DNA of 64,000 bases from Bacteroidota bacterium. Its GTDB lineage: Bacteria > Bacteroidota > Bacteroidia > Chitinophagales > Chitinophagaceae. The DNA lies in assembly GCA_018267955.1 (NCBI GenBank), contig JAFDXL010000010.1:310001-374000 (forward strand), written 5' to 3'. Below, piece by piece: positions 37,232 through 61,041 of this stretch. The translations under genes and the position numbers were made by a program. Under the pieces are notes generated by a model. That model searched no databases and had not been told where the DNA came from. It saw only the letters and a program-made list of their open reading frames with translations. The stretch's first letter is position 1. Each line of letters starts with the position of its first letter.

Positions 37232-38572
37232 TTATTTCACTATGTTGAATCCCTTTATTACTACGCCGGAAGATGACGATAATTTTAACCAATACATGCC
37301 GGTCGGTAAGTCTTCAGTTGATATAGTAGTTTCATTGGTTCCTGTAGCGATTATCTCGTTCCATTGCCGCACCAACCTACCCTGCATATCAATAATAACA
37401 AAATTACACTCCATAGTTTTTGCAAAATATGTCTTCAAATGAATAATATTTTGTGCCGGAGAAGGATATAAGCTGAGTTGGTTTTCATACTTTGCACCCT
37501 CTACAGTGGTGGGGAAGGGATAATAATGATAATATGTAGCGCTTCTGGGCAGCTTCCATTTATTTGCTATCGAATCATAGTCACTATACTTAACTACTTC
37601 TGGATTATTATCGTTATTATAGGTATAATCTGTTTTCAACAATTTGTGCCATACTCCCAAAGAGTCTATTATCTCACTAGTCATAACAGCAAGGTTCCCT
37701 TTCGAATCATATTGAAAGTTCCAGTGTATATTGAATGGATATTTCCCCATGAATGGGCCTGAATAAAGACCATATATAAGACCTGCATAACGGCCAAATC
37801 TATCCGTCAGGATATTTCCCTTGTATACATTACTGTCATAGTATTCATTGTAAATAAGAGTGCCAAGGCTACCATAGGTCCAACGATTATACCTCTGTGT
37901 AAGTAATTTCTGATTATTATAAATCGCAGAATATTTAGTTTCCAACTGCCACGATCCTGAAGTAAATGTATAATATGTTTCACTAGTCATATCATTACCA
38001 GACCATGCATATTCAGCCTTAGAGATATCGCCAGATTGATATGTGATTACATTCGATAGCAACTGCCCATTTGCATTATAAGTATATACATTGCGCTGCC
38101 CGTTAAAGCTATCGACAGCTGTACTATGCTCAACATGGTAACTGGCAATTAACCGGTTAGCTGAGTAAATGAAAGTGTCTACTGCAACAGCATACGATGT
38201 CCATGAAGAAGTATTGAAATCCCAGGAATACTTTCTCGATCCAAGAAGATCATTATTACTGCTATACACTCGTACAGTCATAGAACTGTCTGCATGTATA
38301 GATGAATTATGATCAATTGCCCATGTAGTATCTGCAGAACTACCATCGAGAAAATAAGTATACTCTGTAAGCCCAACCCGAACGGGGTGTGTGATTACAG
38401 AACCTCTGTTCCCAGAAAAATTCTGCCAATATGCATTATTAATGGTTGCTCTCCCCAAAGTATCTAAGCGAACATTTTCATAACCAATAAGCCTCGTTTT
38501 TGACTGGGCATTGCAAATTTGAAAAGATAAAACCAAAATCATTGAGGTGAGTAGAATAATACGTTTACGCAT
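37232..38572 (-). CDS. Secreted repeat-type protein with T9SS type A sorting domain
   Basis: 446 residues. Signal peptide about 1-22. Residues about 60-350 repeat YxYNxxGQL/YDSKGNL-like units (YTYNANGQLLSNV, YAWSGNDMTSETYYTF, FQYDSKGNLAVMTSEI), close in style to YD/RHS-like repeats. The C-terminal residues about 365-446 are a T9SS sorting domain (LSLYPSPAQNIIHL, IDMQGRLVRQW, LPTGMYWLKL). Predicted cell-surface or secreted protein. No enzymatic motif. Confidence 0.8.
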   Translation of the reverse strand: MRKRIILLTSMILVLSFQICNAQSKTRLIGYENVRLDTLGRATINNAYWQNFSGNRGSVITHPVRVGLTEYTYFLDGSSADTTWAIDHNSSIHADSSMTVRVYSSNNDLLGSRKYSWDFNTSSWTSYAVAVDTFIYSANRLIASYHVEHSTAVDSFNGQRNVYTYNANGQLLSNVITYQSGDISKAEYAWSGNDMTSETYYTFTSGSWQLETKYSAIYNNQKLLTQRYNRWTYGSLGTLIYNEYYDSNVYKGNILTDRFGRYAGLIYGLYSGPFMGKYPFNIHWNFQYDSKGNLAVMTSEIIDSLGVWHKLLKTDYTYNNDNNPEVVKYSDYDSIANKWKLPRSATYYHYYPFPTTVEGAKYENQLSLYPSPAQNIIHLKTYFAKTMECNFVIIDMQGRLVRQWNEIIATGTNETTISTEDLPTGMYWLKLSSSSGVVIKGFNIVK

Positions 38573-38714
38573 CGCATGATAATTTAGGTGATTGGAGAAT
38601 TAATAATTATTCAGATGTATCTAAACAATATCCATGCCGAATAATTATTAGGCTCAAAACATTACGTCAAACTACATAATAATATGACTTAGCTTTGACA
38701 TATAACCTTGCAAT

Positions 38715-39089
38715 ATGAATTTCACTTGTCTTGTACCTAATGTATTTTATACCGATATCAGTATAGGTATACAATTGTTTGTAGATTGTCTGGGGTTTAC
38801 AATTACCTACGATGACCGCGCATCTCTCCATCAGCCATTTTGCGTAGTAGTAAACGACAACCTGAAAGTACACCTGGTAGAAAACGCAGAATTTGCCGCC
38901 AAAGACCGGCCGGAGCTTCGCCTGGAAACAAATGACATAGACTCAGTTTACCAAACAATAAGCGCTAGTCATCCCCAACTGCTACACCCCAACCTCAGTA
39001 CTGTTACCCTTCGCCCCTGGAATGCTAAAGAGTTTGCATTGGTGGATGCCTCGGGTGTATGTATCATCATTCAGCAATGGATGAAGTAG
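38715..39089 (+). CDS. Glyoxalase/bleomycin-resistance fold protein
   Basis: 124 residues, small vicinal-oxygen-chelate fold. LVPNVFYTDISIGIQLFVDCLGFTI is the usual first beta-alpha-beta unit; LRPWNAKEFALVDASGVCIIIQQW is the usual last. Members include glyoxalase I, dioxygenases and antibiotic-binding proteins. Metal ligands are not obvious, so a binding role is possible. The following 143 bases to 39232 hold no gene. Confidence 0.78.
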   Translation: MNFTCLVPNVFYTDISIGIQLFVDCLGFTITYDDRASLHQPFCVVVNDNLKVHLVENAEFAAKDRPELRLETNDIDSVYQTISASHPQLLHPNLSTVTLRPWNAKEFALVDASGVCIIIQQWMK

Positions 39090-39232
39090 ATTACCTGAAT
39101 TAAAAGGCGCGACATACCTGCTATACAGGAAACCTGACGAGAAGCCAACTCTATACGTGCCGACCTGGAAGAGTTAAACGAAGAATAAGGCGGAAACTGA
39201 ATCCTGCCCTATCCTGTTTATGATGGAGCTAT

Positions 39233-39841
39233 CTAATCGAGCGGGTTGTATTTTTTAATTAGCAGGGTCTTTGCCTCGAATATCTCTTTAGCCATTTTGC
39301 GAAACAGGCCTTGCCCTGTTTTTTCAGAAGCGTACTGTTTATTACCTTCCTGGCTTTCAAAACCACCTACCATATGTAGGCCTGTTTCTTTATTGGTCAT
39401 TTTCCAGTGGAGCAATTTGTTCTCGGAAAGGAAAATAAGATCTGCATCTTTTATCGGGAAGACATTGTTCTGCATAAAGCCAATGCTCTTGTTATTATAC
39501 AGGAAAGTGAATTCCATCTTTACATCATTCTCAAAATAAAAAGTGATAGTATCATCTTTCTTCAGCGGGAATGATTTGTAGGTAGAATAGAACTGAATAT
39601 AGTTATTGTACCTGTAAGCGCTAAAACCTATACCCAGGAACGATCTCTTTTTAATGGGGGGCAATTCGTCCTTGATTGTATTAAAGGCCGTGTAGTTTCT
39701 TCTGTCTAATGTAAAGGGGAAGGTACGGATGAATTCATCGCCTTGTATGCCGGCGAGCTGGGTTATCTTCACCACATAACGTTCAATCTCTGCAGTACCC
39801 TCATTAATGATGGATGATTTTGCGTTGTACGTAATTGGCAT
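39233..39841 (-). CDS. Protein of unknown function, all-beta and basic
   Basis: 202 residues, no signal peptide, with alternating beta segments (YVVKITQLAG, FLGIGFSAYRYNNYIQFYSTY, TITFYFENDVKMEFTFLY) and a basic C-terminus (FRKMAKEIFEAKTLLIKKYNPLD). I do not recognise a family. Alone between two gaps; the gap behind it (39842-40239, 398 bases) holds a possible small RNA and a terminator. Confidence 0.65.
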   Translation of the reverse strand: MPITYNAKSSIINEGTAEIERYVVKITQLAGIQGDEFIRTFPFTLDRRNYTAFNTIKDELPPIKKRSFLGIGFSAYRYNNYIQFYSTYKSFPLKKDDTITFYFENDVKMEFTFLYNNKSIGFMQNNVFPIKDADLIFLSENKLLHWKMTNKETGLHMVGGFESQEGNKQYASEKTGQGLFRKMAKEIFEAKTLLIKKYNPLD

Positions 39842-40117
39842 TAGGTGTGTTTTTTATTTCCTCAAATATGCCACAGCTTAATATCAAAAAAAAGAAAACA
39901 GCATCGATTAACGAGCTGTTTAAAATTGCTTAACTACCAATTAAGACGTTAAAGGATTACAGTGCAGAAAGTCACCGCAAAAACACTGGCCACACTACCT
40001 GGCATCTGCAACCATTTATATACTACAATAAGCTGTTTTACAATTAATTATACGGATTCTAAAAATATATTAACGTGTTAGATTACAATATTTGTTATGC
40101 AATTCTAAACTTTTAAT

Positions 40118-40220
40118 TAATTTTGGCGCAGAACGATTTTTTCATTGTTTTACCATAAAGTCTTTTATTAGTAAAACACTAAAAAATTAAAGAGCCGTTG
40201 TCTAGCGGCTCTTTACTATT
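40118..40220 (+). ncRNA. Weak small-RNA candidate in a 398-base gap
   Basis: TAATTTTG (40118-40125) matches the -7 box, but no TTG lies at the right -33 distance. Downstream is an inverted pair GTTTTAC/GTAAAAC and then the terminator at 40189. A transcript of about 85 bases would have no coding frame. The rest of 39842-40239 shows nothing I can name. Confidence 0.25.
40189..40214. terminator. Terminator-like hairpin
   Basis: A 9-pair stem (AAAGAGCCG with CGGCTCTTT) with an 8-base loop. It also lies 25 bases beyond the stop of the minus-strand gene at 40240, which it could terminate. Confidence 0.7.
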
Positions 40221-40239
40221 TTATGGCAGTATGTAGATT

Positions 40240-40617
40240 TTACATCGCTTCGTTGTACGGGATTGCCGGACGTTGATTTACCCGGATGGCAGTGATTGTT
40301 TTAGACTGGCGCAGATACTCGTTTACCGAGTTCTTAATAATACGCTTGCAGCCGGTGGTGAGCTTAATGGAACGGTATCCCCTGCCCTCTTTGTAATCTT
40401 CGCGTATCCATTCGGCACGCATGGTTAGTTCTGTGGTAAGCGCCTTTACCTTCTCCATCATTTCTTCAAATGAAGGGGGTACACCATAGTTTTCTATATG
40501 GTTGTATATCTCCTGGATATATTCCCGGGTGATTGTCTTAGCCATTTGCTCAAAAAGGTCCTGGAATTGCTTCCCATAAACCCTTTGACCAAAGAATTCG
40601 GATATGGATGCTAACAT
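40240..40617 (-). CDS. Protein of unknown function, helical
   Basis: 125 residues from the ATG at 40615-40617 (an in-frame TTG 24 bases upstream is rejected). Predicted long helices rich in Glu and Lys (FQDLFEQMAKTITREYIQEIYNHIENYG, FEEMMEKVKALTTELTMRAEWIREDYKEG) and a basic end (IKLTTGCKRIIKNSVNEYLRQSK). No signal peptide. Perhaps a DNA- or RNA-associated or regulatory factor, but this is a guess. Function unknown. Confidence 0.65.
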   Translation of the reverse strand: MLASISEFFGQRVYGKQFQDLFEQMAKTITREYIQEIYNHIENYGVPPSFEEMMEKVKALTTELTMRAEWIREDYKEGRGYRSIKLTTGCKRIIKNSVNEYLRQSKTITAIRVNQRPAIPYNEAM

Positions 40618-40727
40618 AGGTGTTGGTTGGGGGTTGATCAATAATGCTATAATTTAAAGGAGGTTATAAATTATTAGCTTACTATCAGGTAACAAATATA
40701 GAGTTTTTTAACGTAAAAGTCAATAAC

Positions 40728-41087
40728 CTATGGCTTATTAACAGCTACTATGTCATTTGCCTTTATCTGGTAATAATAGGCCACATTAAACTTGTTGATC
40801 TGCACGGCTACCAGGTCGGTAGCGTCATAGATGCATTGTACGGTTCCGCCGTTGGTGCGATACAGGTTGTCGCCGATCTGCTTTTTCAGTTTATATTTTT
40901 TAAAGTCTACAGATACACGGTCTTGCTTCACCAATATAGTACCTGATCTTTTTTTCGTTACCTGGTTGCTGAAACCGAAACCATCTCCGCCTTTCTCGGC
41001 AATGATCACTGTGTTGTACCTATACGACTGCGCAAATGAAGAGGCAGCGATACATAACAGAATAATGAGGAATAGAATGTTTTTCAT
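40728..41087 (-). CDS. Small secreted protein downstream of the usher-like gene
   Basis: 119 residues with a signal peptide (1-19, FAQ end). The mature part is beta-rich and basic (VTKKRSGTILVKQDRVSVDFKKYKLKKQIG). It follows the usher-like gene by 12 bases on the same strand and is probably translated from the same transcript. Unknown; a periplasmic accessory to the barrel is inferred from position. Confidence 0.7.
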   Translation of the reverse strand: MKNILFLIILLCIAASSFAQSYRYNTVIIAEKGGDGFGFSNQVTKKRSGTILVKQDRVSVDFKKYKLKKQIGDNLYRTNGGTVQCIYDATDLVAVQINKFNVAYYYQIKANDIVAVNKP

Positions 41088-41099
41088 GTGCTTAGTATT

Positions 41100-43838
41100 T
41101 TATTGATTCAGGAATCTGATCTTGCGTTTCTTTTGTTTGATCTCGAAAACAACGTAGCTGTTATCATGGCTGTATAAATCGATGGTATAGGATACCTTTG
41201 CAGGTTTGAAATCGGTATCTGCAAATGATGCTTCGTTGATAGAAACCGTATATATGCCCTCTGATACAAACAGATTGAAATTGCCATTCTCATCAGTAAA
41301 AGTCTTGTACTTGTGGCCACTGGTATCTTCAGCAGTCACCTCTATCATATTGGCACCATATTTATAGTTGCTATAATTATCTGAGATAACTTTAATATTA
41401 CCATTGATGGCGCGTCCTTTCTTAAATGGCACCTGGTAAGTAGTATTATTTTTAATAGTAATAGATTGAATAAGGCCATCAACCGGAACTAAGTCATCCA
41501 TCTTACTATTTGCAAGATCAAGTTTGTAATTACCTTCCTGGATATTTTCATAGTCCACCACACCATTTTCGTCCGTCATCATGATCTCGTCATTGATGCC
41601 CATATTCACAGCACCAAGCGATTTCTCATCTTTATCGCGTATGTTGTTACTGTTTGCATCGTAGTAAACAATAACCTTGAGATCATAATATTTTCTGTGA
41701 GTAATTACAGGTATCTTTAAGTTTTGACTTAATGTTACGTATCCATACCTTGATTGATTTAATGGAAGTCCCTGAATATTTCCATTGTCCTTGATCGGCA
41801 TATACGCTCCAAGTTGAAGAAAAGTACCCGTTCTTAAAGTATTATATCCAATATTTGCGTCAACGCCTGTTCTAGTATAATTATCTCTAACCGTTTTGAA
41901 AAACATATATTTAACAGTCCCTGTCAGAGTTTTTCTAAAAAATGCAAAACTTACGTATGGACCACCATTAAGGGTTTCACTATATTTTGCTACAGTGTTC
42001 CCATTTGCATCAGCTTCATAAGTTGGTGTTCGAACATACGACCCCGTCACGCCAAAAAACTTATAATTGGCTGATGCCATATTACTTGTCACTAATGAGC
42101 TTATTGAATTACTGTATGTATTTTGCGAAATGAGGTTTATTTTACTTGAGCCATCCTTATCAAGCTTTCTTTCGAAATTGAAATCACTATAATAGTAGTG
42201 ATTTGTATTGTACATATTAGAATAGCCTTTCTGTTTGAATATACCAGCCCCTGCCATTATACTGATTCTGCCGTTATTATACCCTCCAGTAAAACCATAT
42301 TTCTGGGTATTATAGGACAATATGTCTGTGTTAAACAATGTATCTCTCAAGAAATTCTTACGTATTTCGTTCAGGCTATATAACACACCGACATATCCTT
42401 TTCCTATTGCATAAACTATTGAGTGATTTTGCATATCCAGGCCTTTTTTGTAGCCTGGAAAATTTTTTCCGTGGAAATCAATATACGAGCTGAATGCCCA
42501 TTTATGCAAATTGTAATAAAAATCATAGCCCAGATTAATATCTCCATCCACAACATTAGTATTCTTATTATTTTCAACTCCACCGCCAATATTTGCTGAC
42601 AACTGCATATCATCCCTCTTAATAACCTGCACATTGTTGTTTACAACAATGGCATCCACATTATTTATTTTGTCAGAATTTGCCTCTATGGCATTTGTAA
42701 CAACAAATTTATCAACGCCGTATTTAGCTTTTGCAGCAATCTCATCGCTTTGAAAAACACTCATAGTGGGATTATGTATAACCACGCCAAGTGAATATTC
42801 TTTCTTATCGCTTTCCCGATACGTAATTTTAGCACCGTTTCCAATAGCCAAAAAGTTATCAGTAATGCTTGTTTGGCCAAGCTGAGCATGCCAATTGCGA
42901 TAATCATAACCTGCCATTAAATAATTTCTCTGGAGTGTGTTAGGAATATTGCCGAATTGTTTGCTCTTATAGGTAAAAGAAAAGAGATGCTCTCCAAAAT
43001 GTAATTGACCTCTCGCACCAAAATTATAAGTTTTGTAATTTCCTAAAATCATGGCCCCTCCTTCTATTGTTACAGGAATATTATTATATGGGGACTCATT
43101 CTGCTTTAAAGAACTTTGAGGCCTGTTTATATTATATTCTAAATAGGCATTATCATTAGATGAAGTAATATATAAGCGTATTGTTTCTTTGTATAATTTA
43201 TTCCACTGCGTATTATTCAATTTTAAAGGGTAGTAGTACACAGTATCTTTACCTGGCGATAAGAAAATCTTTTGCCCAATATCTATTTTTAAACTATAAT
43301 TTTTCCACTGCAAAGTGTACGTGTCTGCTACATTGCCTGTATTTTTTAAGTGAACACCAAGGTGCATAACTTCAGGCTTTTCCATAAGTGTTATGTCTTG
43401 TGTTAGTTGATCAGTTCTAAAACGATTTTCTGCCTCAACACTAATATTGTAGAAATATTTTTGGGTATCCCCTTTATTAGGCTCCCAAAATGAAAAATTT
43501 ACTTTCTGCCATAATGCTGCAACATTTAATTGTCGCATGATATTTACAGGGATATTCCTAATACTTGCGGGTGGTATCTGAATGGAAATATTATCAAGAT
43601 TGCCGCCAAGGCTTTTCCATCCTTTGGGCAAAGACACAAATCCGTTAACAACAATCGTATCATTGGACGTGTTGTTAACAAAAATATTATTATAAAGTAT
43701 TTTGTTGCTTTTGTTGGATATCAGGGAATCCCTGAAACTAACTGTAAACGTGGAATCCTGGTGTGAAAATGCTGCTGCCCTTAAGGCAATAATCATCAGT
43801 AAACAGATGAACAGCAGGAGATGTTGTGTTTTTTTCAC
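41100..43838 (-). CDS. Usher-like outer-membrane barrel with Ig and SdrD-B/CNA-B-like domains
   Basis: 912 residues from the GTG at 43836-43838, which starts a good signal peptide (KKTQHLLLFICLLMIIALRAAAFS). Two N-terminal Ig-like domains (about 27-135 and 150-250, with a GKDTVYYYPLKLN strand) precede a long barrel-like region (about 255-730) of aromatic-capped strands (HLFSFTYKSKQF, YLMAGYDYRNWHAQLGQ, YVSFAFFRKTLTGTVKYMFF). The end has an SdrD-B-like unit (VYYDANSNNIRDKDEKSLG) and a CNA-B/carboxypeptidase-regulatory-like unit (YKTFTDENGNFNLFVSEGIYTV), and closes VVFEIKQKKRKIRFLNQ. This layout (N-terminal domains, pore, C-terminal plug-like domains) recalls fimbrial ushers, although there is no clear sequence identity I can state. 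Neighbour to pilin- and chaperone-like genes. Function inferred. Confidence 0.68.
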   Translation of the reverse strand: MKKTQHLLLFICLLMIIALRAAAFSHQDSTFTVSFRDSLISNKSNKILYNNIFVNNTSNDTIVVNGFVSLPKGWKSLGGNLDNISIQIPPASIRNIPVNIMRQLNVAALWQKVNFSFWEPNKGDTQKYFYNISVEAENRFRTDQLTQDITLMEKPEVMHLGVHLKNTGNVADTYTLQWKNYSLKIDIGQKIFLSPGKDTVYYYPLKLNNTQWNKLYKETIRLYITSSNDNAYLEYNINRPQSSLKQNESPYNNIPVTIEGGAMILGNYKTYNFGARGQLHFGEHLFSFTYKSKQFGNIPNTLQRNYLMAGYDYRNWHAQLGQTSITDNFLAIGNGAKITYRESDKKEYSLGVVIHNPTMSVFQSDEIAAKAKYGVDKFVVTNAIEANSDKINNVDAIVVNNNVQVIKRDDMQLSANIGGGVENNKNTNVVDGDINLGYDFYYNLHKWAFSSYIDFHGKNFPGYKKGLDMQNHSIVYAIGKGYVGVLYSLNEIRKNFLRDTLFNTDILSYNTQKYGFTGGYNNGRISIMAGAGIFKQKGYSNMYNTNHYYYSDFNFERKLDKDGSSKINLISQNTYSNSISSLVTSNMASANYKFFGVTGSYVRTPTYEADANGNTVAKYSETLNGGPYVSFAFFRKTLTGTVKYMFFKTVRDNYTRTGVDANIGYNTLRTGTFLQLGAYMPIKDNGNIQGLPLNQSRYGYVTLSQNLKIPVITHRKYYDLKVIVYYDANSNNIRDKDEKSLGAVNMGINDEIMMTDENGVVDYENIQEGNYKLDLANSKMDDLVPVDGLIQSITIKNNTTYQVPFKKGRAINGNIKVISDNYSNYKYGANMIEVTAEDTSGHKYKTFTDENGNFNLFVSEGIYTVSINEASFADTDFKPAKVSYTIDLYSHDNSYVVFEIKQKKRKIRFLNQ

Positions 43839-43930
43839 GGGGGCAAATTGAAGACGATACGGGTCGCTTAGCGTTGACAATGTGTTTTTTACCTCCCCTT
43901 CTCTTTCCTTATTTCTTCGTGGTGATATTG

Positions 43931-43968
43931 AAATTAAGCCCTCCCTAAAGGAAGGAAGGGCTTAATTT
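43931..43968 (-). terminator. Intrinsic terminator of the 43985-44608 gene
   Basis: Arms AAATTAAGCCCT and AGGGCTTAATTT form a 12-pair stem; read on the minus strand it follows the stop at 43985 by about 20 bases, with T-rich ends. Confidence 0.7.
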
Positions 43969-43984
43969 GTATGCTAACAATCAA

Positions 43985-44608
43985 TTATTGCAGTGTAGCA
44001 GTGAAGGTAACAGTACCATAATAAGTACCGCCGTTCAGGTTTTGAGTGTAATAAGCACCAGCACCATCGTGTTTAAACGCACCGATCATCGGTTGAAGAC
44101 GACGCAGATACATACCTTGGTTGCTAGTGTAGCAAGTTTGGTTTGCACCTGTCAGGTGGTCGATTTGATTCCAAGAATCAGAAAAACCAGAACCAGTAAC
44201 AGTTTGAGAAATGTTTCCAGCAACTGAGCTAGATTGCTCTAATGACAAGTAGCTAGCTGGGAAATACCAACCTGAACCAGCACCAGCAGTTGGGTGTAAA
44301 GCTTCTCTAACATCAGTAGATTTTATAGCTACTTTACATTTACGAGAAGCTGACAGGTTAAAAATACCATAACCTACATTCCAACCATTATTCAGGTCAG
44401 ACCAAGCATCAGGTTGAGTGCTGATAAGCAGGTTGTTTTCGTTGTCAATGTCAATCCAGTCGTGCAGGTGCATCATTATTGTCAGATTAGCTGCATCTTC
44501 TTGACGATCTACTGTTGAAGGATTAGTAGATGGATTAGAAGGGAATGATTGTGCGTTTGCTGCGAAAGAAGCGAAAGCCAGCGCAGATGCGAGAACGATT
44601 TTTTTCAT
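43985..44608 (-). CDS. Secreted pilin-like protein
   Basis: 207 residues with a signal peptide (1-19, ANA end). A beta domain follows: LTIMMHLHDWIDIDNE, GIFNLSASRKCKVAIKSTDV and the last strand GGTYYGTVTFTATLQ, matching the end of the 29913/30728 proteins. Two Cys residues in the mature domain may form a disulfide. It is upstream of the usher-like gene on the same strand, separated by a terminator, so it may be expressed at a higher level than the usher, as is common for major subunits. Subunit function is inferred. Confidence 0.7.
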   Translation of the reverse strand: MKKIVLASALAFASFAANAQSFPSNPSTNPSTVDRQEDAANLTIMMHLHDWIDIDNENNLLISTQPDAWSDLNNGWNVGYGIFNLSASRKCKVAIKSTDVREALHPTAGAGSGWYFPASYLSLEQSSSVAGNISQTVTGSGFSDSWNQIDHLTGANQTCYTSNQGMYLRRLQPMIGAFKHDGAGAYYTQNLNGGTYYGTVTFTATLQ

Positions 44609-44988
44609 TGTTTTTGATTTTTAAATGGTTAAAAAAAGTTTGTATTGCAAATCTCTAACAAAACCTTAACGGATGTAAACTCATTTACTCACCCGATAAC
44701 CACAAAACCACATGCAAAGGGCACATCAATGATGTGAATTACTATTTTCCGCACTCAAAACAAGCATACCTACGAGCTTTAAAGTGTCCTAAAATGCTTG
44801 GTTGTCGCTACTTACAAAGAAAATACAGATGATAAATAACAGGTTTAAAAGAACAAGATGTTACACCTGTAATCAAACAGATATTAGCTTTCGAATACAT
44901 CTTATTGAAAATGTCAACCACAGGATATCCACATTTTCGATAAAAAGAATGAAACACAGCCACTTTTATCAATCAATTATAAATTAGC

Positions 44989-45024
44989 AAATTGATTTAT
45001 AATCAATTGATTATAAATCAATTT
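44989..45024. repeat. 36-bp perfect palindrome
   Basis: The 18-base left half (AAATTGATTTATAATCAA) is followed at once by its exact reverse complement. It is A+T-rich and lies in the 660-base gap 44609-45268 between divergent pilin-like and small secreted genes. A weaker TCAATCAATTATAAATTA-like copy precedes it at about 44969. Candidate operator or cruciform. Confidence 0.8.
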
Positions 45025-45070
45025 ACTATGATTAAAAAAAGATTCGTAAGAAATATTGAATTTACAAATG

Positions 45071-45087
45071 GTTAATAACCAGATAAC
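45071..45087 (+). promoter_or_regulatory. GTTAATAAC-type motif, third copy
   Basis: GTTAATAACCAGATAAC agrees at 14 of 17 bases with the start of the duplicated elements at 29788 and 30608. It lies between the palindrome and the small secreted gene. The rest of the 44609-45268 gap shows no coding frame. Confidence 0.35.
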
Positions 45088-45268
45088 ATATCAACCGGGA
45101 GATGCAGTTTATAGACATGGTTATACACATGAATTAACAGGAAATGCACATATTCAGAATAAAATTCAAAAAAACTATTATAAGTTTTGAAGAAGAAAAA
45201 GCCCTGAAAAGTGAAGAAAAACGAGCTTAACGTATTACAACACCCTTATATTTGTGCAAAATAAGGCA

Positions 45269-45463
45269 ATGAAATACATCATATGGTTAATTTTACTCAT
45301 CCCTTTCATAAGTTTAGCTATCCCTCAAGTGGAAAGATCAAGCACAAGCACCTCTATAACCACAACTTTTACAGTTCCGGGAGATGCATCCCATTATACA
45401 GATACTACCAATAAAACTATGCCGCCTGTATCTAAGGATAGTACAGACCATGGTAATAAATAA
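45269..45463 (+). CDS. Small secreted peptide, Thr/Ser-rich
   Basis: 64 residues from the ATG at 45269 with an AAGG site 4 bases in front; an in-frame GTG at 45254 overlaps the -7 box and is rejected. Signal peptide (about 1-18), then a Ser/Thr-rich mature part of about 45 residues (VERSSTSTSITTTFTVPGDA). TATATTTG at 45247-45254 may be its -7 box. No family; it shares the locus of the usher-like system. Confidence 0.55.
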   Translation: MKYIIWLILLIPFISLAIPQVERSSTSTSITTTFTVPGDASHYTDTTNKTMPPVSKDSTDHGNK

Positions 45464-45493
45464 TACTAGCTGCTAAAATGCAGGTAATAGTAA

Positions 45494-45518
45494 AAAGGCA
45501 GAGCTATGCTCTGCCTTT
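45494..45518. terminator. Bidirectional intrinsic terminator
   Basis: An 11-pair perfect stem (AAAGGCAGAGC and complement) around TAT between the convergent small secreted gene and the 45540 gene. Confidence 0.85.
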
Positions 45519-45539
45519 AATATGAAATGATATATATAA

Positions 45540-46028
45540 TTACTGTGCCGAAATAGAAAATATCAAGTTCAAGCCATATTGCCCCCCCTCAGCATTCCAT
45601 GGAGTTGCCATTTTCAAATCCAGAGTATATTGATTAATCACATCGTCATTATTACTAATAATCAACGGAGTTAATACATTCGATACAGGTGTATAAGCGA
45701 CACTGCGGGATTCTTTCAAACTAATAATATCAGGTGAAATAATTGATTTGCCAGAAGATTGTGCACTGAACATGTTATCCCTGCTTTTTACGCTCACCAC
45801 CCAGGGGCAATTGCTTTTTACAGATAAATTAATGCAGTTACGATATTCCTTACCATGAGCAAATTCTTCTAAATTATCAAAACCTATTTGCAGATTATTA
45901 GGATAGGTTACCTCCAGGTCTATCAATGAAGGCATACTTACATTTCCCTGCACCGTAGCATTTTGACTGTAACCAATCAATGGCAATAAAAGCGATAACA
46001 ATATTATATAGGTATACCTAAATATCAT
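45540..46028 (-). CDS. Secreted pilin-like protein
   Basis: 162 residues with a signal peptide (about 1-21, GYSQ end). The domain matches the 30728 type: DLEVTYPNNLQIGFDNLEEFAHG aligns with EITFTG...VNDYANG, and INLSVKSNCPWVVSVKS aligns with EMVVRSNKNFSVSVKA; two Cys are close together here. Its start overlaps the stop of the 46025 gene (ATGA), so the two are translationally coupled. Probable subunit of the same surface structure. Confidence 0.7.
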   Translation of the reverse strand: MIFRYTYIILLSLLLPLIGYSQNATVQGNVSMPSLIDLEVTYPNNLQIGFDNLEEFAHGKEYRNCINLSVKSNCPWVVSVKSRDNMFSAQSSGKSIISPDIISLKESRSVAYTPVSNVLTPLIISNNDDVINQYTLDLKMATPWNAEGGQYGLNLIFSISAQ

Positions 46029-46543
46029 GGCTTGGTCATTGTGAATTTGATCGTGAAATTATAGTTATCCGGGCGAACGTGCTTTGTTAAGGGGTTTAGT
46101 ATAACATTATATACAAAGGAATAAGTATTATTTCCCGGAACCGGGGGCTGCGTAATCAGCAACATAGGGTAACTGGATAATGCCACCGGGCTATTATCGA
46201 TTATAGCTGTGTTGGACGTGGTATTAAATAACTTCAGCGATAACCAGCCTTCAGGCACCAATCTTCTTTTATTTGAAAAGTCTATCTGTGCAAATACCCT
46301 GGTATTCTCATGAGGGGAAGCCTTGAAGCTTAATTGAAAAGCATTAGTAACTACCTTAGGCTGCAATAACTCATCCACATTGGTATACGTGAAATATGCC
46401 GGGTTATTTATCTGAACATTTATATCATAGGAGTTACCTACTCCGTTTGAATTGCCGGGATTAGCAGGAGGGCCACCATAGGCAACCTGAGCATGACTTG
46501 CTGCAGGCAGTAATAATGATAATAGGAATATAATTTTTTTCAT
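46025..46543 (-). CDS. Secreted pilin-like protein
   Basis: 172 residues with a signal peptide (1-18, SHAQ end). The mature part starts YGGPPANPGNSNG and contains YDINVQINNPAYFTYTNVDEL and LSFKASPHENTRVFAQIDF, the same core order as in the 45540 and 30728 proteins, and ends NYNFTIKFTMTKP. It is the first gene of the coupled pair and is divergent from the chaperone-like gene by 88 bases. Probable minor or major subunit; inferred. Confidence 0.68.
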   Translation of the reverse strand: MKKIIFLLSLLLPAASHAQVAYGGPPANPGNSNGVGNSYDINVQINNPAYFTYTNVDELLQPKVVTNAFQLSFKASPHENTRVFAQIDFSNKRRLVPEGWLSLKLFNTTSNTAIIDNSPVALSSYPMLLITQPPVPGNNTYSFVYNVILNPLTKHVRPDNYNFTIKFTMTKP

Positions 46544-46631
46544 AAGAATTATGCCAAAAAGAGTAAATTCGCCTGCACTAAAATTAATTTTTAAATTATC
46601 TGACGAAAGTCCATTACAAATATAACTATCA

Positions 46632-47522
46632 ATGCCAACGAAAAATCATTTATTATTATTATTTTTTTGCTGTGTAACTATAACAAGTTTTGGTCAAGTA
46701 AACAAGGGGAAAGACAGCACAGAGAAAGTTCCAACCGCAGCCGACACCCTAGCAGCGCGTCATCTAAATGATTCATTAAAGCAAAAAAAAGTAGTTTCTT
46801 TCGGCCCAGCTTCATTTGATTTTAACCTGGATAGAGGGAAGACAGGAAAACAAAACTTCTATATCATAAATAGAAAAGATAAACCCTACCCAATTAACCT
46901 TACCATCAAAGATTTTATGAGAGATTCAGTAGGAAATATCGTTTTCTATGAAGCAAATACTACCAAGAACTCATGCGCCAACTGGATAACACTTGACAAA
47001 ACTTACCTGGAAGTACCGCCGGGCAAAATAGGCACAGTAGTAGTAACAGTTAATGTTCCGGACTCCGTTGACATGAGTGAAATGAAATGGGCTATGCTGA
47101 TAGCCGATGTCCCAAAAGAAAAACTTCCTGAGCATAAAGCGGGTAATATCACTACCGTTTTAGAAAATCAAATAAAGATTGGCTCACATATTTATGTAAA
47201 CTTACCCGGGTTAAGTAAGGAATTAAAAATGCTAAGTTTCAAACGTTCGAATGATTCGACTTATTTAATGTGCATAAAAAATATAGGCGGTGCGCAAATT
47301 AGATGCAATGTTTCGGTGGAAATATCTTCTCAATCTACGGGCGAAAAGAAAACCTTTAATCAAGACGACGTACCTTTGTTTCCTGAGCAAATACGATACT
47401 TACAATTTAAACTAGCTAAAGGCACATTAACACCTGGTAAATATACCTTCGTCGCCTTGGCAGATGCAATGGACGACGACGTTCCCCTGGAAGCAGCCCA
47501 ACTGGAAGTTGAAATAAAATAA
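46632..47522 (+). CDS. Periplasmic two-Ig-domain protein, chaperone-like
   Basis: 296 residues with a signal peptide (about 1-22). The first Ig-like domain (about 55-165) reads SFDFNLDRGKTGKQNFYIINRKD...SCANWITLDKTYLEVPPGKIGTVVVTVNVPD. The PPGK-type strand and the following VxVxVP resemble periplasmic fimbrial chaperones and DUF916-type Ig proteins. A second beta domain (about 195-296) follows. Invariant PapD residues are not recognisable. It is co-transcribed with the membrane protein 2 bases downstream, and divergent from the pilin-like pair. Chaperone function is inference. Confidence 0.65.
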   Translation: MPTKNHLLLLFFCCVTITSFGQVNKGKDSTEKVPTAADTLAARHLNDSLKQKKVVSFGPASFDFNLDRGKTGKQNFYIINRKDKPYPINLTIKDFMRDSVGNIVFYEANTTKNSCANWITLDKTYLEVPPGKIGTVVVTVNVPDSVDMSEMKWAMLIADVPKEKLPEHKAGNITTVLENQIKIGSHIYVNLPGLSKELKMLSFKRSNDSTYLMCIKNIGGAQIRCNVSVEISSQSTGEKKTFNQDDVPLFPEQIRYLQFKLAKGTLTPGKYTFVALADAMDDDVPLEAAQLEVEIK

Positions 47523-47524
47523 CA

Positions 47525-48370
47525 ATGAACCCCAGGAAAGACCCTCTATTTGTTTCGCTGATAATCGTTCTGTTTTGCGTTATAGTAGTAGGTGGTTATT
47601 ACTATGGCAGGCATAAACTTAGCTTGTGGATAAATGGAGAGCCTATTAATCAGCACATTACCGGTAATGCAAAGAAAGATATATCCGAAAATTCAACTGT
47701 TTCTATGTCCGGAGTCCCCGTTGATTCCGGACAATTTCTGCAGCCATCAGAAAATACCAGCGAGGTCGCTGGTAAACCTGCCAACGGCGACGATGCCGCA
47801 ACTAAAGGAAACAAAAGTGCAGCTAACCCACCTGCCAACAACATTATCAATATTATTCCACGTACCGATACCCCGGACTTTGGCAAATCTATAAAAGCAA
47901 TGACCTCGCCGTCAACCAACGATAACGAGGAGGAAACTGCTGATAATACACCCTTGATATCTGTATCTGACAACAACGATGTGGTATGCCAGCTAAAGAA
48001 CGGTAAAACGCACAAACTGCTGGTTTACCCTGCTCATTCGGGCTGGCGTAGTATTTACGTGATAGCCCCTGTTGCAGATAGAAAAAACCTGCCGAAAAAA
48101 AGTATTATACAACCTGAATTTGAAGGAGTTAGCTATCCTACATTTAAGGGTCTGCACTTATTTTTCAAAGGAAAAAAGTATGATGTTGTACAGATCTCCT
48201 TTCAGTCAACATCCGTAGATCTAAAACATCAATATAGCATTCTTCTGCAGTCAAATCCCAGCTTTCTGATCTTCGGAGAGCAAAAAAATTCAGATATGTA
48301 TGTATTTGAAAATGGACGCGTTACAAAATTCACCCCTACTGCAGACAATTTTAATTTGACGGATAATTAA
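47525..48370 (+). CDS. Membrane-anchored periplasmic protein, unknown partner of the chaperone-like gene
   Basis: 281 residues. One transmembrane helix near the N-terminus (about 7-27, LFVSLIIVLFCVIVVGGYYYG), then a low-complexity linker rich in Ser, Asn, Pro and Lys (about 40-150), then a beta domain of about 125 residues (VVCQLKNGKTHKLLVYPAHSGWR ... KNSDMYVFENGRVTKFTP). No match recognised. Its 2-base spacing to the chaperone-like gene suggests that both act in the same envelope process, perhaps as an energy or anchor component. Unknown. Confidence 0.7.
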   Translation: MNPRKDPLFVSLIIVLFCVIVVGGYYYGRHKLSLWINGEPINQHITGNAKKDISENSTVSMSGVPVDSGQFLQPSENTSEVAGKPANGDDAATKGNKSAANPPANNIINIIPRTDTPDFGKSIKAMTSPSTNDNEEETADNTPLISVSDNNDVVCQLKNGKTHKLLVYPAHSGWRSIYVIAPVADRKNLPKKSIIQPEFEGVSYPTFKGLHLFFKGKKYDVVQISFQSTSVDLKHQYSILLQSNPSFLIFGEQKNSDMYVFENGRVTKFTPTADNFNLTDN

Positions 48371-48407
48371 AATTCTGTTATTTGCCGTCCTTAACTCTTT
48401 TTTAATA

Positions 48408-48436
48408 AAAAAGAGGACTTTTTAAATCCTCTTTTT
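48408..48436 (+). terminator. Intrinsic terminator
   Basis: A 10-pair stem (AAAAAGAGGA with TCCTCTTTTT) with a 9-base loop, 37 bases past the operon end. The remaining 48437-48762 (326 bases) is A+T-rich, with TTGTTGATTATTTGTGG near 48685 as the nearest promoter-like text; no gene is visible. Confidence 0.8.
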
Positions 48437-48762
48437 CTATTCACATGGAATAAATGGTTTACCAACCCTCTTAACCATTAAAGCTGCAAATGTAAAGCAT
48501 AGTTTACGTTCCAACCCAGATTTTGCATTATTTTTTATTTACACGTGTTTAAACGTGTTGTTTTTTTGGTGATTACTATCAGAATATCAATCACTAAAAG
48601 GTAATAATTTATTGATATAAACTCTTGATTTATTAAAACAGATAATATAATTTAGCAAATCTAACCTAGCGAAACACACGATTTTGTTGATTATTTGTGG
48701 ATAAAGAGAGAGTACTTTAATAGAGGATTAAAAAGTACTAAGAACAAACAAACCATTACCAG

Positions 48763-51700
48763 ATGGCTTACAAAAGAATCGCATTACTCCTATGCGCGTG
48801 CATTTTCGTCTTTGCACGGGTACAGGCACAAACAAGCTGTCCCACCAATATTGATTTTGAGCTGGGTAATTTTACAAATTGGAACCTGTATACAGGTTTT
48901 TGCTGTCCTATAAGCACCCCTACTCCGGGGCAGGTTACGGGGCGGCATACCATTACCAGCGGCACTGCTACAGATCCGTTTGGCGGTTTCCCCGTTGTGG
49001 CGCCGGCCAGCGGAGTGTATTCGCTAAAGCTTGGCAATAGCAATACCAATGCAGAAGCAGAACGTGCCCGTTATTATGTGCACGTGCCAAGCGGCGTTAA
49101 TAATTACAGCGTCATCTTCAGGTATGCTGTAGTGTTTGAAGATCCGGGGCACAATGCGGCCGATCAGCCAAGATTTGAGGTAAAAGCTTTTGACTCAGCC
49201 ACTAATACAATAGTGAACTGCAGCCAGTTTACTTATGTGGCAGCTTCCAACCTACCGGGTTTTGCACTTTCTACCGTCAGGAATAACACTTATTACAAAT
49301 CATGGTCAACTGCCAGCCTCAATCTTACGGGATATGCAGGCCGTACCGTTGCTATAGATTTCGCTTCCGGCGACTGTTCCCTGGGTGCACACTTTGGCTA
49401 TGGCTATGTGGATATGAATTGTGGCCTCTTCCAGATACAAACATTATTAAATTGTGATACCGCAAGCACCATTAGTTTGTCGGCCCCTCCCGGCTTTGAT
49501 ACTTATGTATGGAGGGATTCTGCCACCATGTCTTATATAACAAGCGGACAAAGTGTAAATATCACCAAACCAACACATACTACCACTTACGCAGTTATAC
49601 TCACCCCATTTTCAGGCTTCGGCTGTCCGGACACATTATATACAACAGTCAAAGTCAATAATTTATCTGTTGATGCCGGCAGAGATACTTCCTTTTGCAG
49701 CGCCGCATCTACCCAGTTGCATGCTACAGGCACAGGTACAGCTATACCGCTTACGTATTCATGGACGCCCACTACCGGCCTTAGCTGCAGCACCTGCGTA
49801 AACCCTGTGGCAACGGTATCTGCGACAAAAACTTATTATGTAACGGTAAAGGATGCAGACAATTGCAGCAAAACCGATAGTGTAAAGATCAGCATAAGTA
49901 CACTTGCAATAAACCCCTCTAATGATACCACTATATGCAATGGCAGCAGTGTGCAACTGAATGCCGGCGCCACGGGCAATGCCCCGGCCTTTACTTACAA
50001 CTGGACGCCTAATACAGCATTGAGCTGTACTACATGCGCCAGCCCTGTAAGCAGTACCACTGTCGATCGTACTTATTACGTAACAGTCACAGATACCTTT
50101 CATTGCACTAAATCAGATTCGGTAAAAATAATCTTCAGTAATCCATCGCTTGCTGTCAGCGGGCAAAACCTCTCTTGCTTTAATGCGCAAAATGGCTCGG
50201 CAACAGCAGTCGGCAGCAATGGCCATTCGCCATATACTTATAGCTGGAATACCAGCCCGACGCGTACTACCTCTACGATCACCAGCCTGGCTGCAGGTAA
50301 ATATATTGTAACACTCACCGACAGTGTCGGCTGTACCCGCAGGGATAGTGTTACGCTGACACAACCTAATTTATTGATAGCCAGCACCTCTGCAACAACC
50401 AATGTAAGTTGCAACAATGGCAATAATGGCACCGCAACAGTATCGGCAACAGGCGGCACTACGCCTTATACTTATAGCTGGAACACAACGCCAACACAAA
50501 CCGGCACAACAGCAACCGGGCTCGCCGCAGGCAATTATATAGTTACGGTAAGGGATAGCAACGGATGTTCCGATACTGCATTGGCCATAATTACAGAACC
50601 CGTAAAACTGGTGGCAAGCGTAACGGCTACAACTAATGTTAGCTGTCATAGCGGGAATAATGGTGCGGCAACAGTAAGCACTACCGGTGGCACCGGCTCT
50701 TATACTTACAGGTGGAACACAAGCCCAGCACAAACCACAGCGACAGCCACAGGGCTTACTGCCGGTAGCTATATTGTTACCGTAACAGATAGTAACGGGT
50801 GCTCTGATACTGCATTGGCTGTTATAACGGAACCAACTGCACTGGATGCATCCATCTACTCTACCACCCAGGTAAGCTGCAATGGAGGCAACAACGGTAT
50901 AGCAGTTGCAACAGCCACAGGGGGCACACCTAATTATACTTATAGCTGGAATACAAGCCCTGCACAGACAACAGCAACGGCAACAGGATTAACGGCCGGT
51001 GTATATACCATAACGGTGACGGATGCCCATGGATGTACCGATACTGCCCTGGCAACCATTTCTCAATCTACCTCTCTTGTAGCTTCCATCGCTTCCAGTA
51101 CAAATATTGCCTGCTATGGAGGAACGAATGGTGCAGCATCGGTTTCTGTATCAGGAGGCACGCCATCATATACTTATAGCTGGAATACCACACCGGCACG
51201 CACTACTTCTTCTGTTACAGGGCTGGCAACCGGCAACTATACGGTAACCGTTACCGATGCCAAAGGCTGCTCCAGTTTTGCTACAGTTGCCATCACACAA
51301 CCGGCACAGTTAGATGCTGTTATTGACTCCATAAAAAATGTGAACTGCGCAAATGGTAACGATGGCACACTCTCTGTTTATGTATCGGGCGGCACACCGG
51401 CATATACTTATAGCTGGAATACAACGCCGGCAAAAACCACAGCTTTGGTTACCGGTTTAACTGCAGGTACCTATACCGTGGTGGTTACCGATGCTCATGG
51501 CTGTACAGATACGGCCACACGAGCTATCACACAACCTACCCCATTAGTAGCAGGTATTGCTTCAACAGCTAATGTGAACTGCTATGGCGACAATAATGGT
51601 ACCGCCTCTGCAAATGTTACAGGTGGCACTCCGGGCTATACCTATAGCTGGAGTACAACACCTACGCAAACAACACAAGCCGCCCACAACCTCGCTGCCG

Positions 51701-57657: not shown

Positions 57658-60600
57658 ATGAAAAAAATACGATTTACCCTGAAGGGCTTCGCTTTTGTAC
57701 TTTGTACATTAGCGTTTACCCCGGCGATTGCAAAGCAATCCACAGACGTTTCTTCTCTTGCAAGAAATCCCATTGACCAGACAATAACTGACATTAACTT
57801 CTTACCAACTGCGGGACTGAAAATAGCGAACAGTGCGGAGGTTTTGAAAAGCTACCTGGAATTGGACGACCCAAATCAGCAGCTTGTTTCTGCATATACG
57901 CAGCATCCGGGAGATGGCCTTGCGGTGCAGCGATTCGAGCAATGGTATAAAGGTATTAAAGTAGCGCATGGTTCTTTTTCTGTTGCAGCAAAAAATGGCA
58001 TTATTACCTATGCTCATGGTAATATCTTCAGGCCGGCAACTGAATTGTCTACTGTCGCTACGCTTTCCGAAAGCCAGGCCTTACAAAAGGCATTGGATTT
58101 TATCAATGCGCAGGATTACATGTGGCAGAATCCTAAACAGGAAAAAATGCTGCGTGAAGTAATGAAAGATCCTAATGCCACCTACTTCCCTAAAGGAACA
58201 ATGGTATGGGTGGAAGATTTTAGTTCAACAGCGCGGAATAAGCAGCTGCACCTGGCCTATTGTTTCAATATATATGCAGAAGCGCCGCTGAGCAGAAACC
58301 TGGTATATATTGATGCCAACACGGGCAATGTGCTATTAAAGGACCCGGTGATCAAACATATCACGGCAACCGGAAAAAGCGTATACAGCGGTAACGTATC
58401 CTTCGAGACGGATCTCTCTGGTTCCTCTTATATCCTTTACGATAATACCCGTGGTGTATATACCGGCTCTTTTCACAATGGCACCACTACGCAATACGAT
58501 GTCGACAATTCATCCACAACATGGGCTACAAACCAGGCAATTGACGCACATTGGGGCGCAGTGAATGTATATGACTACTGGGGCAAAGAACAAGCGCGCG
58601 CCAGTTATGATGGCATCGGATCTGCGCTTAACAGTTTTGTTAATTATGATGTAGGTTATAATAACGCTTTCTGGAACGGAGCATGGATGACATACGGTGA
58701 TGGCACCGGTATATTGAATGGTGGCTTCGACCCGCTTACAGCGCAGGATGTATGTGCGCATGAAATAGGCCATGGCGTATGCCAGACAACCTGCGGGCTG
58801 GTATATCAAAGCGAATCCGGTGGTATGAATGAAGGCTTTAGCGACATATGGGGAGAAACCATAGAGCACTACGCATCGCCTGAAAAACCAATGTGGCAGG
58901 TAGGTGCAGAAATTGCACGCGTACCGCTAAGGAGTATGCGCATCCCAAAACAATACGGAAATCCGGATACTTATAATGGTACATATTGGGTTACTACCGG
59001 TAGCAGTTGCACTTCATCTAATGACTATTGCGGCGTACATACCAACAGTGGTGTACTCAACAAATGGTATTATCTATTGACAGACGGTGGAAGTGGTACA
59101 AATGATGCCAGCATCAGCTATGTAGTTGGTGGCATTGGCCTGCAAAAAGCAGCAAGGATAGCTTATGGTACAGAACTTTTGTTGAACAATACAGACAACT
59201 ATGCTGCCTGCAGAACTACAAGCATTGGTGTTGCCACTACTATATATGGTGCATGCTCACCGGAAGTAGAAGCCGTAACCCGCGCCTGGAGGGCAGTAAA
59301 CGTAGGCGCTGCATTTGCACCTTGCGGTCCGCAGATAGGTTTTGTAAACCATGATACTGTGGTAAACAAAGTATCCGGCAGCACAGCGTGTCCTGCATAC
59401 AAGACTATTGATATACCCATCACCATCAACGCAGCAGCGACAGGTAGCAACCCGATCGTTACTGTTACCGGTACGGGTACGGCAGTATTAGGTACCGATT
59501 ATAGCTTTGTGAACAATACAGTAACATTCACAGCAGGTACGATATCTACTGAGCATATATTATTGAACATATTGGATAACGGCGTTACCACTACCGATAA
59601 AGATCTGACACTAACATTCAGCATATCACCGGGTAATGATGCAACTATTGGGGATGTTTACCATGAATATCAGATCACTATCAAAGGCAATAGCACAGTG
59701 CCACAGGTAGCAGGAGATGTAGATTACTATGCCGGAGATGCTAATTTATATACTAAAATAGCTACACCGTTTTTTGGTGCTGCACAATCTGCCAGGACAC
59801 AGTTTATCATAAGTGCCGCAGACCTGAAAGCTTCCGGTGTTAAACCTAATACTCCTATTTCTGTAATGAGCTTTAATGTTGTAGATAAGAAATCAACCAA
59901 AGTGTATTCTAACTACACTGTTAAACTTGGTCTCACAACACAGGCACTATTTAACGGATCACAAGGCTTTGTAGGTTCAGGGCTTACTACCTATTTCAGC
60001 GGCCCGTTTGTCAGTGCAGCAGGATGGAACAAAATAATACTTAGCTCTCCTTTTACATGGGATGGATTAAGCAATGTTGTTTGCGAAATATGTTTCGCAA
60101 ATTCAGCCGCAGCAACATCTGCGGATAGCAACGATCGCGTAGAAGCATCCAACAGCATTAATAACATTACTGCTTACAACTTCCAAACATCCGGTACTAG
60201 TGCGTGTGCCCTTAGTTTCAGCACTTCTAAACTATCCAACTCCAGGCCAAGGGTTGCATTTACACAATCAGTAGTCAATACAGAAGCAGAAACCGCAGCG
60301 CCATCTGACCGTAGCTGGGATGTACATGCCAACCAGGATGTATATTTCTATAGCAGTACTAACAACAAGCTGATAGCACAATTGAACCTGCCATCACAAG
60401 ATCTTGGATGTGTTACTACAAGCGTATCAAAGCAGGGTAATGGATTTTCGCCATTTGCACTGGGCCAGGGAGCCAACAGGTCTTCGAAGGAATTCAACAT
60501 CCAGGCAACTACAAATGGCAATACTGCAACCAGCAACACCACCATTTATTTTGATACGGCAGAACTGGGCAATGTAATAACAGGTAATGTCCGTATTATC

Positions 60601-61041
60601 AAAACCACAGCAGCCAAAGATTCTGATATTAACGTGCTGAACACGCAACTGGTAACGCCGACAGTGATAACTACAAGTGCCAACTTCAAAGGCTTTGCAG
60701 GCAACTTCACCGGTTTCTCCCGCTTTTTCCTCGTAGATAAAGATGTGGTTTTGCCAACTGTAGGTATTAAGCAGGTGAATAAGATCAATAGCATGAACGT
60801 GGACAATAACCCTTTCAGCAATACGATCTTTATCAGCTATAGCATTAACTCTGATACTAAAGCAACCATCCACCTGTTTGACATTACAGGAAAGGTTCTT
60901 TACAACAGTGATTTACTGCTGATGAGCGGCCAAAACAGGTTTAGCATCGATGTAAGCAACCTTTCACTTACCCCGGGACAATATGTCCTTCAGATCATTA
61001 CACCAACAGATGTATTGACCAGGAAGATGGTAAAACAGTAA
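57658..61041 (+). CDS. Secreted M4-family (thermolysin-like) zinc metallopeptidase with T9SS sorting domain
   Basis: 1127 residues. Signal peptide (about 1-22); propeptide with FTP-like region (about 60-230); catalytic M4 domain (about 235-565) with HEIGH (H368, E369, H372), zinc ligand E392 in GGMNEGFSDIWGE and the catalytic His H461 in GVHTNSGVLN. A Calx-beta-like domain (about 585-680) and two further beta domains follow. Residues about 1045-1127 form the T9SS type A sorting domain (NPFSNTIFISY, LFDITGKVLYN, LTPGQYVLQI). It digests proteins outside the cell. The C-terminal domains are longer than in the basic M4 enzymes. Confidence 0.9.
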   Translation: MKKIRFTLKGFAFVLCTLAFTPAIAKQSTDVSSLARNPIDQTITDINFLPTAGLKIANSAEVLKSYLELDDPNQQLVSAYTQHPGDGLAVQRFEQWYKGIKVAHGSFSVAAKNGIITYAHGNIFRPATELSTVATLSESQALQKALDFINAQDYMWQNPKQEKMLREVMKDPNATYFPKGTMVWVEDFSSTARNKQLHLAYCFNIYAEAPLSRNLVYIDANTGNVLLKDPVIKHITATGKSVYSGNVSFETDLSGSSYILYDNTRGVYTGSFHNGTTTQYDVDNSSTTWATNQAIDAHWGAVNVYDYWGKEQARASYDGIGSALNSFVNYDVGYNNAFWNGAWMTYGDGTGILNGGFDPLTAQDVCAHEIGHGVCQTTCGLVYQSESGGMNEGFSDIWGETIEHYASPEKPMWQVGAEIARVPLRSMRIPKQYGNPDTYNGTYWVTTGSSCTSSNDYCGVHTNSGVLNKWYYLLTDGGSGTNDASISYVVGGIGLQKAARIAYGTELLLNNTDNYAACRTTSIGVATTIYGACSPEVEAVTRAWRAVNVGAAFAPCGPQIGFVNHDTVVNKVSGSTACPAYKTIDIPITINAAATGSNPIVTVTGTGTAVLGTDYSFVNNTVTFTAGTISTEHILLNILDNGVTTTDKDLTLTFSISPGNDATIGDVYHEYQITIKGNSTVPQVAGDVDYYAGDANLYTKIATPFFGAAQSARTQFIISAADLKASGVKPNTPISVMSFNVVDKKSTKVYSNYTVKLGLTTQALFNGSQGFVGSGLTTYFSGPFVSAAGWNKIILSSPFTWDGLSNVVCEICFANSAAATSADSNDRVEASNSINNITAYNFQTSGTSACALSFSTSKLSNSRPRVAFTQSVVNTEAETAAPSDRSWDVHANQDVYFYSSTNNKLIAQLNLPSQDLGCVTTSVSKQGNGFSPFALGQGANRSSKEFNIQATTNGNTATSNTTIYFDTAELGNVITGNVRIIKTTAAKDSDINVLNTQLVTPTVITTSANFKGFAGNFTGFSRFFLVDKDVVLPTVGIKQVNKINSMNVDNNPFSNTIFISYSINSDTKATIHLFDITGKVLYNSDLLLMSGQNRFSIDVSNLSLTPGQYVLQIITPTDVLTRKMVKQ

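Follow-up and report, generated by a model that had tools for sequence, protein, structure and literature searches.

The DNA analysed here is a 64,000-nt window (assembly GCA_018267955.1, contig JAFDXL010000010.1, positions 310,001-374,000, forward strand), and its subject is a cluster of genes that appears to encode a pilus assembly system comparable to the chaperone-usher pathway. The six proteins named in a preliminary description of the locus all correspond to long open reading frames (Table 1). On the minus strand, the genes for the pilin-like subunits A and B are followed, after a gap of 931 bp, by those for subunit C, the large usher-like barrel and a short exported protein, while the chaperone-like protein and a membrane-anchored protein are encoded in that order on the opposite strand. 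The membrane-anchored partner does exist as a frame, but it is not a core part of the system because it clusters in only 5 neighbourhood loci. Scans of the locus proteins against Pfam and NCBIfam gave no match named fimbrial.

Table 1. Genes and other features of the locus, of the window and of related loci (aa, amino acids; Ig, immunoglobulin; positions are those of the window unless a locus is named)
Feature	Position	Strand	Remarks
Usher-like outer-membrane barrel (modelled domain order)	41100..43838	-	912 aa from GTG start; 926 aa from upstream TTG
Pilin-like subunit C	43985..44608	-	207 aa; adjoins barrel gene on its upstream side
Pilin-like subunit B	45540..46028	-	162 aa; 4-bp overlap with subunit A
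Pilin-like subunit A	46025..46543	-	172 aa; C-terminal end FTMTKP
Two-Ig-domain periplasmic chaperone-like protein	46632..47522	+	296 aa; divergent from subunits A-B; LEVPPGK present
Membrane-anchored protein, possible accessory	47525..48370	+	281 aa; no Pfam/NCBIfam match
Exported protein, possible accessory	40728..41087	-	119 aa; directly 3' of barrel; cluster of 8 loci; no Pfam match
133-aa protein	40240..40641	-	cluster spans 10 loci in the vicinity of barrel loci
202-aa protein	39233..39841	-	cluster of 11 proteins from 9 loci, near barrel loci
Conserved stretch directly 5' of subunit C	44609-44707
Perfect 36-bp palindrome	44989-45024		inside the B-C gap
1875-aa protein	48763-54390		14 SprB repeat stretches; CHU_C type IX secretion domain
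Thermolysin-type M4 peptidase	57658-61041		Por_Secre_tail sorting domain; weak Calx-beta match
Third chaperone locus of the same genome	L131:8230-10746		contig 10
345-493-aa subunit-domain proteins	L098:10990-12405, L109:5545-6981, L110:9908-11248, L111:6029-7066, L112:10221-11657, L116:10976-12349, L118:5834-7267, L059:13246-14727		tip-adhesin candidates

The co-occurrence of these genes in relatives, proposed as a check in the preliminary description, was confirmed. Barrel matches, some of them partial, were found in 27 of 149 genomes, that of the window included. One of them, in genome G075, was rejected as spurious (a 54-aa frame with six stops). The other 25 relatives all encode the chaperone somewhere in the genome, so that G075 is the single exception among the 26. 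A profile of the N-terminal and barrel parts detected the barrel in 53 of the 395 genomes of the class, distributed over 37 of 197 genera; in a phylum-wide draw it was present in 10 of 296 genomes, three of which lie outside the class and gave weak matches. Across the same 395 genomes, 58 possess the chaperone (E<=1e-10) and 51 possess both proteins, a co-occurrence with a hypergeometric p of 7e-54 when kinship is ignored. These counts of barrels and chaperones are lower bounds, since the barrel of genome G484, missed by the genome search even at E<=10, was found in its locus by hmmsearch. Around 34 distant loci chosen by the barrel alone (stretches of 10.5 to 18 kb, from 33 of the 53 barrel genomes), profile search recovered a subunit in every case and a chaperone in 32, one of these being in two fragments and another cut by the end of the stretch; for both loci lacking it, the genome has a chaperone on another contig. 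As this set of genes recurs in many genera, its association is more than chance. The genome of the window itself contains two barrels and three chaperones. At the third chaperone locus, A-, B- and short C-type subunits are present, no barrel match occurs in its 19-kb stretch, and a 947-aa neighbour suspected of being another type of usher turned out to be an M16 peptidase.

The subunits provide a direct connection with a known structure. The three types are homologous to one another, with hhalign probabilities of 99.8 between the profiles of B (A6) and C (A5) and 98.4 between those of A (A7) and B. When compared with the PDB, the subunit-C profile (23 sequences) matches entries 9ikj and 9ikk, that is TLP-1 and TLP-2, with E=6.4e-12, and the subunit-B profile matches TLP-2 more weakly (E=1.6e-4). 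We take these entries, of 16 chains each, to be the CryoSeek fibrils observed in pond water by cryo-electron microscopy (Wang et al. 2024). A subunit from a relative, locus L057, matches TLP-2 with E=7.5e-48 over residues 35-270, and the gene order there, on a single strand, is chaperone, TLP-like subunit, second small gene and barrel. In the filament, the N-terminal strand of protomer n+4 is said to complete protomer n, and an uncharacterised bacterial pilus was reportedly suggested; by homology to the TLP chains, donor-strand exchange may be expected between the subunits of the locus as well. A passage in a review (PMC12967142) states that the filaments described from pond water by Wang et al. 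have received no conclusive identification. At the other end of the protein, the C-terminal strand of subunit C reads GGTYYGTVTFTATLQ. Of 119 subunits, 90 carry a Gly-x-[YFI] motif that starts 14 or 15 residues before the C-terminal end, FimA having a Gly at -14; within -18..-10 the motif occurs in 98 of the 119, as against 27 of 405 other open reading frames, the subunits having been selected by profiles that cover this region. A pooled cluster of 130 subunits reaches 79.4% in hhalign with 15 K-12 pilins, over the last 50 columns, a profile likeness that is suggestive only. No subunit matches the Pfam families of FimA/Mfa1 (type V pili). Proteins of 345-493 aa ending in the subunit domain, most of them with weaker domain matches upstream, were observed at eight loci and are candidates for tip adhesins.

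The exported two-Ig-domain protein with a PPGK strand was correctly recognised in the preliminary description, and the structural and profile comparisons proposed there both give matches to the PapD family. Its AlphaFold2 model, built from 7 sequences, has a mean pLDDT (predicted local distance difference test) of 85.4 and comprises two Ig-like domains. In a Foldseek search, Enterococcus faecium WxLIP occupies ranks 1-3 (E 9e-13 to 2.8e-12), followed among the chaperones of chaperone-usher systems by CfaA at rank 5, CsuC at ranks 6 and 7, then Caf1M, FimC and, at rank 42, PapD. At the sequence level, the chaperone alignment (A2) reaches 86.6% in hhalign against seven K-12 PapD-family chaperones, and a cluster of 50 chaperones reaches 93.4% against the K-12 PapD-family profile. 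As a control, the same PapD profile was compared with 25 clusters of at least 4 members from the fetched neighbourhoods and with six alignments. Among the best 14 of these 31 rows, the next after the chaperone are an Ig-bearing barrel cluster (26.8%) and the barrel alignment A1 (16.7%), the remaining ones staying at or below 2%. Searched by sequence against the PDB, the chaperone again has its best match in E. faecium WxLIP chains (E 7e-4). The WxLIP_PGBD family is detected at E<=0.1 in 10 of 15 chaperone members (best 1.9e-6), the protein of the window scoring 19.5 bits, below the Pfam cut-off of 27.3. Most likely, judging from these profiles and the model, the chaperone is a distant homologue of the PapD family, related to it by descent.

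The largest protein of the locus is predicted to consist of a signal peptide, two N-terminal Ig-like blocks, a barrel region and two small C-terminal beta domains. Its AlphaFold2 model (9 sequences; pLDDT 77.7, predicted TM-score, or pTM, 0.46) shows two strand-rich N-terminal blocks, 26 predicted strands at mature residues 228-685 and two C-terminal beta blocks. The N-terminal Ig-like domains proposed beforehand find further support in Ig-type Pfam matches at E<=0.1 among 24 family members (FixG_C in 9, NPCBM_assoc in 4). The proposed SdrD_B-like C-terminal domain holds for the family, with matches at this threshold in 21 of the 24 members, next to CarboxypepD_reg in 23; in the window protein itself both matches are under the Pfam cut-off. 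Compared with the PDB by Foldseek, the barrel model retrieves FimD/PapC usher entries at all of ranks 1-10 (E 2.8e-13 to 2.2e-10, over 751-811 alignment columns), and the first outer-membrane barrel of another kind, the TonB-type BtuB, appears at rank 21 (E 6e-7). A TonB-type barrel, the alternative raised in the preliminary description, is disfavoured by this ranking and by Pfam. The modelled order of domains is thus usher-like. The barrel of locus L067 is 53% identical to that of the window.

A series of observations weighs against the system being of the chaperone-usher type. With regard to distribution, profile search recovered a subunit at 29 of 33 barrel loci of nearer relatives (stretches of 4.6 to 22 kb) and a chaperone at 16, each time together with a subunit; four of the loci (L018, L043, L045, L058) have neither, their genomes encoding a chaperone elsewhere, and 7 of the 58 chaperone genomes, G484 among them, have no barrel match at E<=0.001. 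The fold matches of the chaperone include unrelated Ig proteins, namely the Vpr fibril (rank 4), CEP192 (rank 8) and a transglutaminase (rank 16), all with lower TM-scores (template modelling scores). PapD has an Arg-Lys anchor, and a counterpart of it is not evident in the chaperone. Taken separately, the subunit alignments score 56% (A7), 32% (A6) and 16% (A5) against the K-12 pilins, in a comparison whose background reaches 31.6% with the chaperone alignment, through the signal peptide. The other points concern the barrel. Its ten usher matches have query-normalised TM-scores of 0.24-0.32 and root-mean-square deviations of 18-25 A, which, together with the pTM, leaves the domain arrangement uncertain. 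Entries containing only the barrel of an usher (ranks 19 and 28) score no better than BtuB, so that the likeness, given also the low TM-scores, lies in the domain order as a whole. In hhalign, the barrel reaches 22.5% against five K-12 ushers, in the C-terminal region only, and the 69-member barrel cluster 6.7%; 13 overlapping slices of a 68-member alignment stay at or below 4.7%, the barrel part at 0.2%. As both whole and sliced comparisons are negative, sequence homology to ushers is not demonstrated for the barrel. The Pfam usher family PF00577 matches neither the window barrel nor, among 25 of 26 families listed, its 24 family members, and a search of 395 class genomes detects it in none (0 of 395), the E. 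coli control being positive. Moreover, the largest insertion in the barrel region of 67 aligned relatives measures 34 aa and occurs in one protein only, length differences of any size being located at the protein ends, and the window model has no gap of at least 20 residues between its barrel strands. A plug of usher size is consequently absent, although some short strands at 259-329 may form a very small one. These profile and plug tests speak against classing the barrel as a classical usher. The caution of the preliminary description against any PapD, FimD or SCPU identity was well placed: neither the locus proteins nor their families match Pfam PapD or SCPU (25 of 26 families listed in the case of the barrel family).

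These results give some substance to a variant of the chaperone-usher interpretation in which the chaperone and the TLP-type pilins are genuine and the barrel is an unrelated exporter with Ig-like flanks, made usher-like by convergence of domain order. The missing profile homology, the missing plug-size insertion and the failure of the isolated barrel to come nearer to ushers than to BtuB speak for it; the monopoly of usher entries among the ten best structural matches, and a gene company identical to that of ushers, speak against it. We consider it a real contender, if somewhat the less probable one. The preliminary description had left open a distant or a convergent counterpart of chaperone-usher systems; this proposal is largely supported, the chaperone favouring distant homology while the barrel would agree with either.

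A second explanation follows from the WxLIP matches. The locus could encode a WxL/WxLIP-like surface complex, in which the 296-aa protein would be a scaffold lastingly attached to small surface proteins that coat the cell instead of polymerising, and the barrel a secretion pore or an anchor. WxLIP is indeed the best match of the chaperone by fold and by PDB sequence, and its domain is detectable in two thirds of the chaperone members. However, no WxL-domain match exists in Pfam for any of the 23 subunit-C members, nor for subunits A and B of the window, and membership of the WxL family is rejected on this ground; the chaperone also matches the PapD-family profile, and the subunits are homologous to chains of 16-copy entries that we take to be filaments. 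WxL clusters are not known to include any counterpart of an outer-membrane barrel. This explanation is therefore unlikely. Even less credible is an adhesin-display operon that, instead of making pili, would serve the giant SprB-repeat protein next to the locus and the gliding/type IX secretion machinery: that protein adjoins the locus, and several relatives have cluster-3 proteins close to their barrel loci, but the set that recurs at the 34 distant loci consists of chaperone, subunits and barrel, SprB repeats not having been searched for there.

Taken together, the data make it probable that the locus specifies a divergent Bacteroidota pathway of chaperone-usher type building TLP-type donor-strand pili. 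The claim concerns the mode of action, which would resemble that of a chaperone-usher system; homology between the barrel and FimD is not required for it. Once exported into the periplasm, subunits A, B and C would each be held by the two-Ig chaperone, which would pair with the region of the subunit's C-terminal beta strand. The N-terminal Ig domains of the barrel could offer a docking platform, the large barrel a pore and the two C-terminal beta domains a hand-over site or gate, so that subunits would be released outward during polymerisation, the N-terminal strand of each completing the incomplete Ig fold of its neighbour. The product would be a filament of TLP-1 type with subunit C-like proteins as main building block; A and B would serve as tip or base parts, a place that the 345-493-aa multi-domain subunits may take in other genomes. 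The links to TLP-1/TLP-2 and to WxLIP are new relative to the preliminary description. Given the negative outcome of the tests for an usher profile and for a plug, the locus is not classed in the chaperone-usher family, and since no Pfam usher was found in the 395 genomes, it may be the class's own version. A bolder proposal, for which we see about even chances, is that the Bacteroidota possess a branch of their own within the chaperone-usher superfamily, in which the usher has no plug and the chaperone stands between PapD and Gram-positive WxLIP, that this branch assembles the pond-water TLP filaments, and that WxLIP-WxL, PapD-pilin and this system share one ancestor. Among the literature matches listed, no Bacteroidota chaperone-usher system with these parts is described. 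The present analysis offers a gene set, and hence testable organisms, for a filament reportedly known only from cryo-electron microscopy of pond water, proposes a route of donor-strand pilus assembly in a class whose 395 sampled genomes show no Pfam usher, and may tie the pilus chaperones of Proteobacteria to Gram-positive WxLIP proteins.

The non-coding parts of the locus were also inspected. The gap between B and C contains the sole exact palindrome of at least 24 bp in the window. The ~100 bp directly 5' of subunit C are 78-82% identical between the loci in L032, L035 and L037 and are perhaps a promoter with a leader; the remainder of the gap matches only the near relative L032. An Rfam scan of 38000-50000, this conserved stretch included, gave no family at gathering score, and no relative was present among 160 pattern matches in viral contigs. 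Farther away, the window encodes a thermolysin-type peptidase (Table 1).

Compared with known systems, the locus has features of several. The type V pili of Bacteroidia (FimA/Mfa1) are likewise donor-strand pili of the same phylum, but the subunits of the locus do not match their Pfam families. To our knowledge, type V pili use no chaperone-usher pair. A survey (PMC4793230) leaves out chaperone-usher systems. WxLIP (DUF916/DUF3324; PDB 9i1y and 9i25) is the closest solved relative of the chaperone in fold and sequence, 9i25 being, by its title, a WxLIP bound to a WxL protein; in WxL clusters, according to PMC10599100, a WxLIP-type protein is paired with small partners, and in a text search of that article the terms chaperone, PapD and donor strand were not found. 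In contrast with the locus, these proteins are Gram-positive, and the subunits of the locus have no WxL match. With the chaperone-usher systems (PapD/FimC with PapC/FimD, the archaic CsuC and the alpha CfaA), the locus shares a two-Ig chaperone, an order of barrel domains that in the model resembles that of ushers, small subunits whose C-terminal strand contains Gly, and clustered genes; it differs in a barrel that has neither a Pfam usher match nor a plug-size insertion, and that carries two Ig-like blocks at its N-terminus and SdrD_B/CarboxypepD_reg-like domains at its C-terminus. Finally, TLP-1 and TLP-2 (9ikj, 9ikk) belong by sequence homology to the same family as the subunits, with the difference that, in the family of the window, chaperone and barrel genes stand beside them.

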